Shown piece after piece: positions 57,231 through 61,841 of a stretch of DNA of 64,000 bases. Position 1 is the stretch's first letter. Each line of letters opens with the position of its first letter. Below the pieces are notes generated by a model. That model saw only the letters and a list, made by a program, of their open reading frames with translations, was not told the origin of the DNA and did not search any database. Made by a program: the position numbers and the translations under genes. Origin of the DNA: Paenibacillus bovis (lineage in GTDB: Bacteria > Bacillota > Bacilli > Bacillales > Bacillaceae_C); assembly GCA_007679095.1 (NCBI GenBank), contig VEFU01000022.1, positions 1-64,000 of the forward strand, given 5' to 3'.

Positions 57231-57360
57231 GATGAAGAAATATAATATTCATTACTTTTTATATAGATTTTAGATGACTTATTTGCTATTCTTCTTTAAA
57301 ATGAAAATATGTTGTAATTTAAAGTATTTTGTCGAAAATCTAATTGGTGGTGAAAGTAAC

Positions 57361-59397
57361 TTGGTTACATCGTATGACCATTTATTTGAAGATGAGAATG
57401 GTTTACTTAATTTCATACATAAACAAAACCTCGCTAATTATAAATCATTGTTTATTGAAGTGACGAAACCAGGTGATAATGTAATAGATTCCGCATCTTG
57501 TATTGAAATACTACTAAAATCATTACCACATGCTGTAATTAGCGAAAAAAACATAGAAGAAGATTTGAGCAATAATCCGTTATCTAAAGTATCTATTAGA
57601 TTTACTGTTTTTAATGTTGAAAAACCTGAAAATGATTACAAACATTCATTAATTACTCCTAATACGGATGAATTTGCTAGACTTTTTTCACATGTGAATA
57701 ATGAGTATGGAAAAGTTTCTACCGTATTGAACGCAACAAATGATTACTATACATCCATTTATCAAAAATTTCCGGAAGTAGCTTTTACAACAGATATAGA
57801 GGGGCGTTTTACAAGTATAAACGATGCTTTTTCAACAGCTTTTGGCATGAATATTGATGATGTAAAAGGGAAATCAGTAGAATATTTTCTACCTAATAAT
57901 AATGTTCCGATTAGAAGACACTTTTTTCGAGCATTACGTGGGAAAACGGTGGAATTTGAAATAGATGTAAAGAATAAATCTGGCAATATTGAACATTATT
58001 TATTTCACCTTGTTCCAATCTTGTTAAAAGATGAAGTGGTGGAAATGTTTGTGTTTGGTAGAAATATAACGAAGCAAAAAGTAATGGAACAGAAAATGGA
58101 AAGATTTGCTTATTTTGACCAAGATACCGGTTTACCTAATCGGATGAGATTTAATGAAATATTAGAGAGATGTGTCGTAAAGGCTAAAAAAATCAATGCG
58201 AAATTTCATGTTATGTTTATGGATGTGGATCGATTTAAATCGATTAATGATATGCTTGGTCACCGAGCAGGAGATATGGTTTTAAAAGAATTAGCTAAGC
58301 GCATATCCGCTGAAATACCGAAAAATGCAGTTTTAGGTAGATTTAGTGGCGACAAGTTTTCTATTATTCTACCTGAAAAAAATCCGATTCTAGATACAAC
58401 AGAAATTGGCAAAGCATTATTGAAATCTATTCAAAAGCCTTTTTTATACGATAATCAAGAGTTTTTCGTTACAGGAAGTATTGGTATTAGTCAATTTCCA
58501 AATGATGGTCATAATACGATGGAATTAATGAAAAATGCAGATCTTGCATTGAATTATGTGAAGCAGCAAGGTGGAAATAGCTTAATATTCTATACAGAAG
58601 ACATGAATAAAGAGACGGTAAGAAGGTTAGAAATAGAAGGTAGTCTGCGTAAAGCATTAGAAAAAGATGAGCTATTTATCGCATATCAGCCAATTATTAA
58701 TACACAATCAAGAGAATTAAGTACATGTGAAGCACTTCTAAGATGGAATCATCCAGAGCTAGGGTTGATTCCGCCAACGACGTTCATTCCTATAGCGGAA
58801 GAAACAGGCATGATTCATGAAATTGGATACTGGGTATTAAAAAAAGCATGCAAACAAATTAAGGAATGGCAAAATGATGGGATGCCACATTTATGTGTTT
58901 CTGTAAATGTATCTGCCCACCAACTTCAAAATAACCGCTTTATTGATGAAGTGAAATCCGCACTTGAATATTCAGGTTTAGAGGCAAGATACTTGTACTT
59001 AGAATTAACAGAAAGCGCTATGCTAAAATATGCCTCAGATACAATTGAAATGATGAGAAAGCTAGGAGAATTAGGAGTAAATATATCAATCGATGATTTT
59101 GGTACAGGGTATTCTTCATTAAGTTATTTGAAGAATTTACCGATTCATCATTTGAAAATTGATCGTTCTTTTATTCAATGCTTTAGAATGGATTCTCCAG
59201 ATTTTGCAATAGTGAATGCCATTATGACAATGGGACATGGACTAGGGTTAAACATTGTTGCAGAAGGTGTAGAGACAAAGGATCAATTAACCTTATTAAC
59301 GAAAATCGGTTGTGATTTTGTCCAAGGCTACTATGTAGAAAAGCCAATGCAACCAGATCAATTTTATAGTTGGCATCAAAACATGAAAGTATATTAA
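57361..59397 (+). CDS. PAS-GGDEF-EAL protein, probable c-di-GMP phosphodiesterase
   Basis: The 678-residue cytosolic protein has an N-terminal region of ~130 residues without a known fold, then a PAS domain (about 135-245). A GGDEF domain (about 250-415) and an EAL domain (about 430-670) follow. The GGDEF active site is degenerate: S329-G-D-K-F333 instead of GGDEF. The EAL site is intact with E457-A-L and DDFGTGYSSLSYL, so hydrolysis of c-di-GMP is more likely than synthesis. The open frame begins at 57274, but TTG 57361, 7-8 bases after GGTGGTGA, is the only start with a site. Confidence 0.88.
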   Translation: MVTSYDHLFEDENGLLNFIHKQNLANYKSLFIEVTKPGDNVIDSASCIEILLKSLPHAVISEKNIEEDLSNNPLSKVSIRFTVFNVEKPENDYKHSLITPNTDEFARLFSHVNNEYGKVSTVLNATNDYYTSIYQKFPEVAFTTDIEGRFTSINDAFSTAFGMNIDDVKGKSVEYFLPNNNVPIRRHFFRALRGKTVEFEIDVKNKSGNIEHYLFHLVPILLKDEVVEMFVFGRNITKQKVMEQKMERFAYFDQDTGLPNRMRFNEILERCVVKAKKINAKFHVMFMDVDRFKSINDMLGHRAGDMVLKELAKRISAEIPKNAVLGRFSGDKFSIILPEKNPILDTTEIGKALLKSIQKPFLYDNQEFFVTGSIGISQFPNDGHNTMELMKNADLALNYVKQQGGNSLIFYTEDMNKETVRRLEIEGSLRKALEKDELFIAYQPIINTQSRELSTCEALLRWNHPELGLIPPTTFIPIAEETGMIHEIGYWVLKKACKQIKEWQNDGMPHLCVSVNVSAHQLQNNRFIDEVKSALEYSGLEARYLYLELTESAMLKYASDTIEMMRKLGELGVNISIDDFGTGYSSLSYLKNLPIHHLKIDRSFIQCFRMDSPDFAIVNAIMTMGHGLGLNIVAEGVETKDQLTLLTKIGCDFVQGYYVEKPMQPDQFYSWHQNMKVY

Positions 59398-59438: not shown

Positions 59439-60827
59439 TTGTTGAAAAAAACATTTAGTATATTGTTACTCTTTTCACTTATCTTCACTACAGTAACGGT
59501 TCAAGCAGATGAAGTAGAGGACCGAAAATGGGAAGACGAAATTATTTATTCGCTCATCGTCGATAGATTTTATAATGGTAATAGTGAGAATGATTTCGAA
59601 GTGAATATGAAAGACATAAATAGTTATAATGGTGGCGATTTTGCCGGTATTGAAAAGCGATTAGACTATTTAAGAGACATGGGATTTACAGTTATACAAT
59701 TATCATCAATCTTTGAAAATGAAGATGGTGGATATCATGGACAATGGATTACTGATTATTACAGTCCAGAACAACACTTTGGTACAATGAAAGAATTTAA
59801 CAAATTAGTTAAAGCAGCACACGATAAAGGAATAAAAATAATTTTAGAGTTTCCTGTTCTTCCTAATTATTCAAATACGGATATACATGATGCTGCAAAA
59901 TGGTGGGTTGAAAATACAGAAATTGATGGGTATAAAATACCGAATGTAAAATCAAGATCGATTGAATTTTGGAAACAATTTATTGAAATCATGAAGCAAG
60001 AAAATGAAAACTTTTATGTATCAGCGCAAGATAAAGTGTTAAGTGATACAGATATGAAAGCACTTTACAGTGCAGGATTCGATGGTGTTTCTACAATTTC
60101 ATTAGTACAACCTTTAAGAGATGCATTTTCGAATACAAACAAATCTGCTCAATCATTATTGGAGTTAACAAAGGAAAATAGTGATTTATCTGGGATTCAA
60201 GAGGTGTTCTTTGACAATAAGGATACAACTAGATTTACTCGGGACATGGTAGAGAGTGGGGCTTTTCCGGGATCTTCTTGGAAATTAGCATTGACATATT
60301 TATATACACAACCATCTGTCCCAGTCATTTTCTATGCTACCGAAATTGCAGTCAATGGTGGAGAGGCACCGGAAAATATACCATTAATGAACTTCAGAAC
60401 AGATGAGGAGTTAATTGACTTTATCACTGATTTAGGGAAGGTTAGACAAGAACAACCAGCATTAACTAGAGGTTCAATGGATATATTGCATGAAGATAAT
60501 GGGCTAATTGCTTTTAAGCGTCAGTATGAATCTGATACAGTCGTAGTAGTAATTAATAATACAGATGTAGATCAGAACTTTATTATCCCAGCTAGTGATT
60601 TAGAGGATGAAAAAGAATTACGTGGTTTGTTAGGTACGGATTTAGTTCGAAGTGATAATGGGGAATATAAAATATTTATTGATCGTGAAGGAATGGAAAT
60701 TTATAAACTAACCGATAAAAGCGGTATTAATGTGTGGTTTATTATTGCGTTGTTTGCGGTTTTTGGATCATTTATACTCTTTATGTACATCGCTTGGAAG
60801 CGTGGGAAAAATCGTATACCAGAATAA
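59439..60827 (+). CDS. Amylase-fold (GH13-like) membrane-anchored protein lacking catalytic residues
   Basis: The 462-residue protein has a signal peptide (LKKTFSILLLFSLIFTTVTVQA), an amylase-type barrel (EDEIIYSLIVDRFYNG, NGGDFAGIEKRLDYL, GYHGQWITDYYSPEQHFGT) and a C-terminal membrane helix at about 430-455, then basic residues. The GH13 nucleophile region reads GYKIPNVK (P168 for Asp). The acid/base region reads YVSAQDK (Q197 for Glu). The stabiliser motif reads DNKDTTR (K261 for His, D262 kept). Conserved region I reads EFPVLPNY instead of D-x-x-x-N-H. It is likely an inactive binding or regulatory protein outside the cell. The start is TTG 59439 (or 59442) behind GGGGG. Confidence 0.82.
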   Translation: MLKKTFSILLLFSLIFTTVTVQADEVEDRKWEDEIIYSLIVDRFYNGNSENDFEVNMKDINSYNGGDFAGIEKRLDYLRDMGFTVIQLSSIFENEDGGYHGQWITDYYSPEQHFGTMKEFNKLVKAAHDKGIKIILEFPVLPNYSNTDIHDAAKWWVENTEIDGYKIPNVKSRSIEFWKQFIEIMKQENENFYVSAQDKVLSDTDMKALYSAGFDGVSTISLVQPLRDAFSNTNKSAQSLLELTKENSDLSGIQEVFFDNKDTTRFTRDMVESGAFPGSSWKLALTYLYTQPSVPVIFYATEIAVNGGEAPENIPLMNFRTDEELIDFITDLGKVRQEQPALTRGSMDILHEDNGLIAFKRQYESDTVVVVINNTDVDQNFIIPASDLEDEKELRGLLGTDLVRSDNGEYKIFIDREGMEIYKLTDKSGINVWFIIALFAVFGSFILFMYIAWKRGKNRIPE

Positions 60828-60831
60828 TATT

Positions 60832-60875
60832 AACCGAACTATCATGAGTTATATCAAAGATAGTTCGGTTTTTGA
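60832..60875 (+). terminator. Intrinsic terminator after the amylase-like gene
   Basis: AACCGAACTATC pairs with GATAGTTCGGTT, followed by TTTTGATTTT. The stem sequence is shared with 28713-28748 and 45183-45212. Confidence 0.92.
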
Positions 60876-60974
60876 TTTTCATTCGTATTACTTTGTTCAA
60901 TCAAATCGTTTTGTCCCAGCGACTTTCAAAAAAATATCTGTGCATGTGGATCAGCTTTATTACACGAACGTTGT

Positions 60975-61841
60975 TTATCCATTAATAACAGATCCTCCGT
61001 TAATGTGAATCATTTGGCCAGTAACATAGCTAGAGTCTTCAGAAGCTAGATAAACATAAGCAGGTCCTAGTTCGGATGGTTGTCCAGGACGTTGGCCGAT
61101 TGGTTGTGAGGAGCCGAAGTTACTTACTTTTTCTGCATCGAAAGTAGCAGGGATAAGTGGTGTCCAAATAGGTCCTGGTGCTACACCATTTACTCGGATT
61201 CCTTTCTCAGCTAGTGACATAGCTAATGACCTAGTAAAAGAAACAATCGCTCCCTTCGTTGAGGAGTAGTCTAGTAATTCAGGGCTTCCTGCATAAGCAG
61301 TAATGGATGCAGTATTTATAATTGAACTTCCTGCTTTTAAATGTGGTAATGCTGCTTTTGTTAAAAAGAAGAAAGAGTAAATATTTGTTCTAAACGTTTT
61401 ATCTAATTGCTCTTCTGTAATATCAAGCAAGCTTTTTTGTGGATGTTGTTCTGCTGCATTGTTAACAAGAATATCAATTTGATTAAAGGTGTCCATTACT
61501 TGTTTGACGATATCTTGGCAGTGCTGTTCTTGTCCAATATCACCACGAATTAATAGACATTTTCTTCCTTCATTTTCAATTTCCTGCTTTGTTAATTCAG
61601 CATCAGAATCCTCGTTAAGATAAGAAATGGCAATATCAGCACCTTCTCTTGCAAAGTGAAGTGCTGCAGCTTTACCTATTCCACTATCTCCACCAGTGAT
61701 AATGGCAACTTTATTTGTAAGTTTGCCACTACCTTTATAAGTGGATTTAATTGATTCTGGTATAGGGTTCATTTCGCTTTGAATCCCAGGTTGTTTGTTT
61801 TGCTGTTGTTTAGGCATCGTGTTTTTGTTGTTTTGAGACAT
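60975..61841 (-). CDS. Short-chain dehydrogenase/reductase (YhxC/YdaD-like)
   Basis: The 288-residue SDR has an N-terminal 40-residue extension rich in Gln/Asn/Lys. The nucleotide motif ITGGDSGIGKAAA, NNAAEQHPQ and the active-site Y-x-x-x-K (LDYSSTKGA) follow. The end AYVYLASEDSSYVTGQMIHINGG is typical. The extended N terminus is found in the Bacillus YdaD, YhdF and YhxC group, linked to general stress. The substrate is unknown. AAAGGGAGTGCTATT precedes the ATG. Confidence 0.93.
   Translation of the reverse strand: MSQNNKNTMPKQQQNKQPGIQSEMNPIPESIKSTYKGSGKLTNKVAIITGGDSGIGKAAALHFAREGADIAISYLNEDSDAELTKQEIENEGRKCLLIRGDIGQEQHCQDIVKQVMDTFNQIDILVNNAAEQHPQKSLLDITEEQLDKTFRTNIYSFFFLTKAALPHLKAGSSIINTASITAYAGSPELLDYSSTKGAIVSFTRSLAMSLAEKGIRVNGVAPGPIWTPLIPATFDAEKVSNFGSSQPIGQRPGQPSELGPAYVYLASEDSSYVTGQMIHINGGSVING

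Follow-up and report, generated by a model that had tools for sequence, protein, structure and literature searches.

The gene at positions 59439..60827 (+) of the window (the whole 64,000-nucleotide stretch of DNA analysed here) is predicted to encode a membrane-anchored pseudo-α-amylase that is GH13_45-like. Amylases of this type are carried on the cell surface by many soil bacilli. As judged from the alignments and a structural model, the protein has lost both its catalytic centre and domain B. It retains the fold, domain C, the calcium site near the N-terminus and the membrane anchor, and the altered relatives are under purifying selection. The maintenance of an open gene and the selection on its relatives suggest a second job at the membrane. 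It is likely that a surface amylase was kept after the loss of catalysis for a non-catalytic job of domain C and the anchor, most probably as a membrane scaffold or heavy-chain-like subunit. The relatives and the model lend indirect support to the initial annotation in so far as it described a selected, probably non-enzymatic, membrane-anchored surface protein.

The frame is intact, as annotated initially, and runs open from a TTG start to a TAA stop, encoding 462 amino acids. The protein sequence matches the Pfam families Alpha-amylase (1.9e-28) and Alpha-amylase_C_2 (1.1e-25). Hydrophobic stretches are present at both ends, in agreement with the signal-like N-terminus and the C-terminal helix that had been proposed. 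The first corresponds to a putative signal peptide (residues 1–23; 59439..59507, +), for which a VQA/DE cut was placed by eye; Ala23 is invariant across 25 aligned sequences. It is followed by a (β/α)8 barrel (residues 25–343; 59511..60467, +), the approximate boundaries of which were derived from an AlphaFold2 model and its superposition, and by domain C, a β sandwich (residues 344–427; 60468..60719, +) delimited by Pfam and the model. A transmembrane helix (residues 432–457; 60732..60809, +), predicted from hydropathy and from a helix in the model, leads into a short basic tail, and the topology is probably type I. Downstream of the gene, a terminator-like hairpin followed by a T-rich stretch (60832..60870, +) was recognized by its fold energy of −18.5 kcal/mol (z −6.1; none of 200 shuffled sequences folded as well) and was not picked up by a simple terminator scan. 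A 92-codon ORF in another frame (60730-61008) overlaps the 3′ end of the amylase gene and is probably due to chance.

The AlphaFold2 model, built from 52 sequences (mean pLDDT 88.1, pTM 0.83), could be superposed on 5a2c over 400 residues at 1.2 Å with 44% identity (Z 53.1), and the GH13 fold superfamily (PF00128) was matched with 100.4 bits against a cut-off of 22. The nearest solved chains are ASKA/TASKA from Anoxybacillus (5a2b, 7.2e-107; 5a2a) and GTA from Geobacillus (4e2o); chains of the ASKA/GTA type also occupy ranks 1–3 in the fold comparison, and 5a2b was included in the tree. The tryptophan pair in helix α3 of GH13_45 is present as W155 and W156, and in 55 of 61 altered relatives. 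Alignment to the ligands described in PMC4791539 showed that the conserved Ca2 site (N46, N48, N51, D52, G65 and D67; 59574..59639, +) is kept in full. The fold, domains A and C, the tryptophan pair and the Ca2 site are common to the window protein and to ASKA/TASKA (5a2a-c), GTA (4e2o) and BaqA. Unlike ASKA, GTA and BaqA, the window protein has neither a catalytic triad nor domain B, and its gene lies outside a maltodextrin operon. The GH13_45 signature LPDlx in CSR-V is absent, the segment being missing altogether; LPDL was present in 34 of the 35 intact loci and 17 of the 61 altered rows. A signal peptide and a C-terminal transmembrane region have been described for GH13_45 members (PMC11448133). 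For the C-terminal segment, in which the papers describe five aromatics, the window protein has a helix and several aromatics. On sequence grounds, the gene can be regarded as a single-copy Lederbergia member of GH13_45 and as a positional orthologue of the membrane-anchored amylases.

In place of the GH13 catalytic residues Asp/Glu/Asp, the protein carries P168, Q197 and D262. On alignment to 5a2b, P168 (codon 59940..59942, +) falls on the nucleophile Asp, Q197 (60027..60029, +) on the acid/base Glu and D262 (60222..60224, +), the residue kept in the window copy, on the transition-state Asp. The residues read earlier from the sequence (E137, P168, Q197 and D262) were found as claimed. The description “two of three lost” applies to the window copy; the remaining 15 sequences from the genus have another residue in place of the third Asp as well. 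Region I has the spacing DxxxNH in GH13 and reads DFVVNH in 5a2b. E137 was confirmed, and the His falls by ungapped count on P142, not on Y144 as had been proposed, at a place where domain B is missing.

The missing domain B (site at about residues 141–147; 59859..59879, +) is a feature additional to those in the initial annotation. The spacing between F138 and W155 is 17 residues in the window protein versus 46–70 in copies with domain B (49–70 in intact ones). Domain B is absent in 16 of the 61 altered rows and in none of the 35 intact loci. Of these 16 rows, which occupy three separate places in the tree, 13 come from the window's genus, two from Neobacillus (L056, L062) and one from Cytobacillus (L054). 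Owing to the absence of domain B, the Ca1 site, which bridges domains A and B, presumably cannot form. The cleft itself is also degraded. The named maltose contacts at subsite −1 of ASKA are Y100, W101, Y143, R211, D213, E242, H309, D310 and R362 (PMC4791539). In the window protein, Y100 is replaced by Q102, R211 by K166, D213 by P168, E242 by Q197, H309 by K261 and R362 by I314, and Y143 falls in the deleted region. W103 (ASKA W101) is the sole non-catalytic contact left, and D262 (ASKA D310) remains from the triad. With most of these contacts gone, the earlier suggestion of a glycan sensor or receptor is not upheld as far as the old cleft is concerned.

Altered residues alone do not prove inactivity, since BmaN1, which has an odd triad, has been reported to be active (PMC5347038; PMC11448133). 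It is nevertheless quite improbable that the window protein is still an enzyme using non-canonical residues, as proposed for BmaN1. D262 is kept and D198 adjoins Q197, which would favor residual catalysis. However, BmaN1 is described as retaining domain B, the acid/base Glu and an Asp in a shifted position. In the window copy, the nucleophile position reads Pro-Asn and the acid/base position Gln, and both domain B and the LPDlx region are lacking. Where the BmaN1 group has Lys then Asp at the nucleophile, a His stabiliser and the Glu, the window protein has P168-N169, D262 and Q197. The variation among relatives argues in the same direction. The 61 altered rows contain 41 different triads, with all three residues replaced in 39, two in 12 and one in 10, an irregular pattern unlike that of a new active site. 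Two Peribacillus sequences (L061, L075) read DDD, Glu to Asp at the acid/base position being their sole triad change, and may be weakly active or recently altered.

The relatives were compared in a 97-row alignment comprising 80 named loci, the window, 15 further loci and 5a2b, after 13 duplicates had been dropped. The window's genus, probably Lederbergia, includes Lederbergia citrea, L. wuyishanensis, L. panacisoli and L. citri, and records titled Bacillus sp. and Bacillus niameyensis fall in the same group. Asp/Glu/Asp is kept in 36 rows (35 loci and 5a2b) and altered in 61, so that loss of the triad is not a chance occurrence. A search for orthologues with the substitutions of the window copy had been suggested. 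Altered triads proved widespread, Pro at the nucleophile occurring in 14 of the 61 altered rows at three separate places in the tree (the window copy, L036 and 12 sequences that form a Neobacillus clade). Four sequences (L069, L052, L112 and L072) titled Pseudomonas sp. ISL-84, Paenibacillus sp. FSL R5-0490, Paenibacillus sp. FJAT-29882 and Sporosarcina globispora, respectively, sit among Cytobacillus or Peribacillus loci on the tree, and these names may be wrong.

As the 97-row set had been picked by likeness to a mostly altered alignment, the order was sampled too. A match at 1e-70 was found in 179 of 299 genomes, and 178 of the 179 had a single match. Ninety-four order genomes were read (the 30 top matches plus roughly every other one of the remaining matches listed); among the matches listed, 70 were intact and 24 altered, the latter probably an underestimate because the best end was sampled more densely and the weak end is absent among the matches listed. 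A joint FastTree tree of 191 sequences, a rough guide in view of long branches that meet, requires at least 9 changes of state, 8 of them forced by supported branches, or 12 losses if loss is irreversible. The IQ-TREE tree of the 97 rows alone gave 6 changes of state, 5 of them forced.

Thirty genomes were searched by locus, and at E 1e-30 every one of them had a single copy, seen in 29 as two adjacent pieces flanking domain B and in one as a single piece. With one copy per genome, the enzyme was altered in situ and not beside a kept duplicate. Synteny over the 80 loci (flanks of 5 kb or less) extends to an SDR oxidoreductase gene in 62, yajQ in 62, DegV in 46 and yitT in 31; in the window, the SDR gene (60975..61841, −) is convergent to the amylase gene. 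Owing to this shared synteny, the genes are positional orthologues. All 16 genus genomes and 29 of 34 family genomes have a match, and none of the 29 contains an internal stop; the five family genomes without a match all belong to one other genus. Elsewhere in the order, a few matches carry one stop.

Since even the nearest sequence is just 56% identical to the window copy, dN/dS was taken on relatives. Pairwise values ranged from 0.044 to 0.178 in 17 altered pairs and from 0.033 to 0.104 in 12 of 14 intact pairs, the other 2 being saturated. Values were also pooled by part for 6 Lederbergia/Siminovitchia pairs versus 7 intact pairs. The segment β3–β7 showed 0.212 versus 0.054, i.e., about fourfold less constraint, and the whole barrel 0.134 versus 0.047. 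Domain C showed 0.092 versus 0.080, and the anchor (juxtamembrane segment, helix and tail) 0.084 versus 0.083. Hence, relaxation is confined to the barrel and strongest round the old active site, and constraint on domain C and the anchor is undiminished. As this constraint is unchanged and not raised, it is by itself no pointer to a new function. In relative site rates from three altered groups, the active-site shell and domain C agreed in three and the anchor in two; in the Neobacillus group, anchor site rates were not lower relative to the rest. A tighter domain C in the altered groups, seen in relative site rates, was dropped in favor of dN/dS, which shows unchanged constraint. A decaying pseudogene that happens to be open is scarcely credible: the long end branch (0.54) and the barrel dN/dS, raised relative to intact copies, would suit decay, but the family genomes show no stop inside the match, dN/dS stays below 0.2 in altered pairs, and domain C and the anchor are constrained as before.

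The genomic setting differs between intact and altered copies. The usual intact locus consists of a GH13 neopullulanase-like gene, malE, malF, malG, the amylase gene and LacI (gene names by likeness). Among the 35 intact loci, 31 have malF or malG nearby in the flank, against 4 of the 45 altered ones, such that four altered loci remain in the operon and four intact loci lie outside. The four altered loci in a maltodextrin-type operon (L058, L060, L098 and L113) have one residue changed each (DEN, EED, DEQ and DEN, respectively) and possibly represent early stages of triad loss. MalF was then sought at 1e-100 in the genomes of 39 of the 45 loci without flanking malF or malG, several genomes being scored on 45 candidates. 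In 34 of the 39 it was not found (for several, among 45 candidates); 31 of these belong to the 35 genomes with an altered copy and 3 to the 4 with an intact one. In the order sample of 94 genomes, MalF was found at the same threshold in 69 of the 70 genomes that have an intact copy and in 12 of the 24 that have an altered one (Fisher p 6e-8, before any correction for kinship). In the 12 altered genomes with MalF, its listed place was beside the gene in 4, elsewhere in 7 and unlisted in 1. Once kinship was corrected for, 5 independent pairs had support. Averaged, 2.2 of them agree, 0.0 disagree and 2.7 show no difference; with only 5 such pairs, a sign test cannot reach significance. The link between operon and triad is strong in raw counts, weak after this correction and, as a cause, unproven.

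The genome of the window has two maltodextrin-type transporters elsewhere, one of them adjoining a lipoprotein-like GH13 gene. This gene (G000:C473; L125:3411-5000) has intact triad motifs and is followed by malE-malF-malG-LacI, and a neopullulanase-like gene adjoins. Replacement by another surface amylase was considered as a general cause of the loss and rejected, relatives of the lipoprotein-like GH13 (E 1e-80) being present in 5 of 16 genus genomes, 6 of 34 family genomes and 1 of 36 others.

The same MalF counts bear on the main rival reading, a surface sugar-binding protein, in which the barrel would be inert and domain C and the C-terminal aromatic segment would hold starch, glycogen or cell-wall glycan. 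A transmembrane helix and a starch-binding C-terminal region have been described in BmaN1, the segment raising raw-starch binding (Frima et al., 2024; PMC11448133). F445 is Phe in 55 and F448 in 61 of the 61 altered rows, and domain C is constrained as in the intact enzymes. Such a role is rather unlikely, however, as most subsite −1 residues are gone and MalF was missing at E 1e-100 from 31 of 35 altered genomes without malF or malG at the locus and from 12 of 24 in the order sample. The aromatics probably reside in the membrane in vivo, since the segment carrying them coincides with the predicted transmembrane helix.

Upstream of the amylase gene, separated by a 41-bp gap and on the same strand, is a PAS-GGDEF-EAL gene (57274..59397, +), which was not counted as part of the system. 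The encoded protein has a degenerate GGDEF motif (SGDKF) and the EAL motif EALLRW, and presumably acts as a phosphodiesterase only. Its adjacency had led to the suggestion of a possible second-messenger link and of a search for the same neighbour beside orthologues. An EAL gene is directly upstream in only 8 of 16 genus genomes (the window, L012, L013 and L038-L042); in the other 8, DUF1516 is the nearest recognised upstream gene and EAL is absent there. The suggested link is not supported. Outside the genus, two Siminovitchia loci (L046, L047) likewise have EAL directly upstream. Several loci of Cytobacillus and Mesobacillus have it one or two genes off, with yisN or yisN-asnO between, and in several other genera, it is located between DUF1516 and yisN. 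In the window, the adjacency accompanies the absence of yisN and asnO. It thus resembles a by-product of local gene loss, as yisN or yisN-asnO intervene in other genera.

A glycan sensor tied to c-di-GMP signalling through this gene is very improbable. The short same-strand gap would point to it, as would the EAL genes flanking 15 of the 45 altered loci versus 1 of the 35 intact ones; however, the gene is not directly upstream in half of the genus genomes, and no link between EAL and triad was seen among independent pairs on the tree. EAL coupling was rejected as a general feature on these grounds, and a regulatory link has no support. Moreover, the EAL protein has no 19-residue stretch of mean hydropathy above 1.45 and is therefore probably cytosolic, and the amylase tail on that side of the membrane is very short.

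The preferred reading, retention for a non-catalytic job of domain C and the anchor, may be pictured as follows. The ancestor would have been a surface amylase encoded in an operon for maltodextrin uptake, and a non-catalytic role would have been present from the start or added later. Once the locus, or the whole genome, had lost the operon, selection for catalysis would have been released, and the second role would have kept the gene. The barrel would face the cell exterior as an inert body, and a partner protein would be bound through domain C and the transmembrane helix. The scaffold step, our first choice, draws on the pattern of constraint and on analogy with mammalian 4F2hc (SLC3A2). This single-pass membrane protein is described as having an ectodomain made up of a GH13 barrel plus domain C, in which domain B is absent and the catalytic residues are not conserved (PMC8537225). 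This build, with barrel and domain C, one membrane helix and neither domain B nor triad, is also that of the window protein. The two differ in that 4F2hc has its anchor on the N-terminal side and a covalently linked SLC7 light subunit, whereas the helix of the window protein is C-terminal; a disulfide-linked partner is impossible for the window protein, which is free of cysteine. The likeness to 4F2hc is by review description and without superposition, and it constitutes an analogy, not membership; 4F2hc was not among the 50 structural matches listed for the model. More tentatively, the anchored amylases of GH13_45 may have two functions in general. Domain C and the helix would then serve a constant membrane partner or structure as a separately arisen bacterial counterpart of 4F2hc heavy chains, and loss of maltodextrin uptake would repeatedly have unmasked this role, barrels becoming inert and domain B being shed in three lineages.

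Incomplete triads in GH13_45 are partly in print already. Sarian et al. (2017) reported active BmaN1 together with seven relatives (Nos 28–34) with irregular triad substitutions (PMC5347038). These GH13_45 relatives carry irregular substitutions of the whole triad, as does the window protein. In the accessible portion of that article, domain B is described as present, and no analysis of selection, synteny or independent loss appears. Most GH13_45 members have been described as lacking complete conserved regions (PMC12695923), and an aberrant GH13_45 subgroup has been mentioned (PMC11239784). A literature search by title and abstract opening, with subscription papers mostly outside its range, found neither repeated catalytic loss nor domain-B loss in GH13_45, and likewise neither its operon context nor its selection pattern.

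About a quarter of GH13_45 genes (24 of 94 order genomes, among the matches listed) are without the canonical triad, and calling such a gene an α-amylase therefore overstates starch use. If the second function is true, the family would provide a natural series from enzyme to pseudoenzyme in which a gene present once per genome has changed state at least 8 times, and comparison of what is kept and what is lost across this series could map the non-catalytic function.
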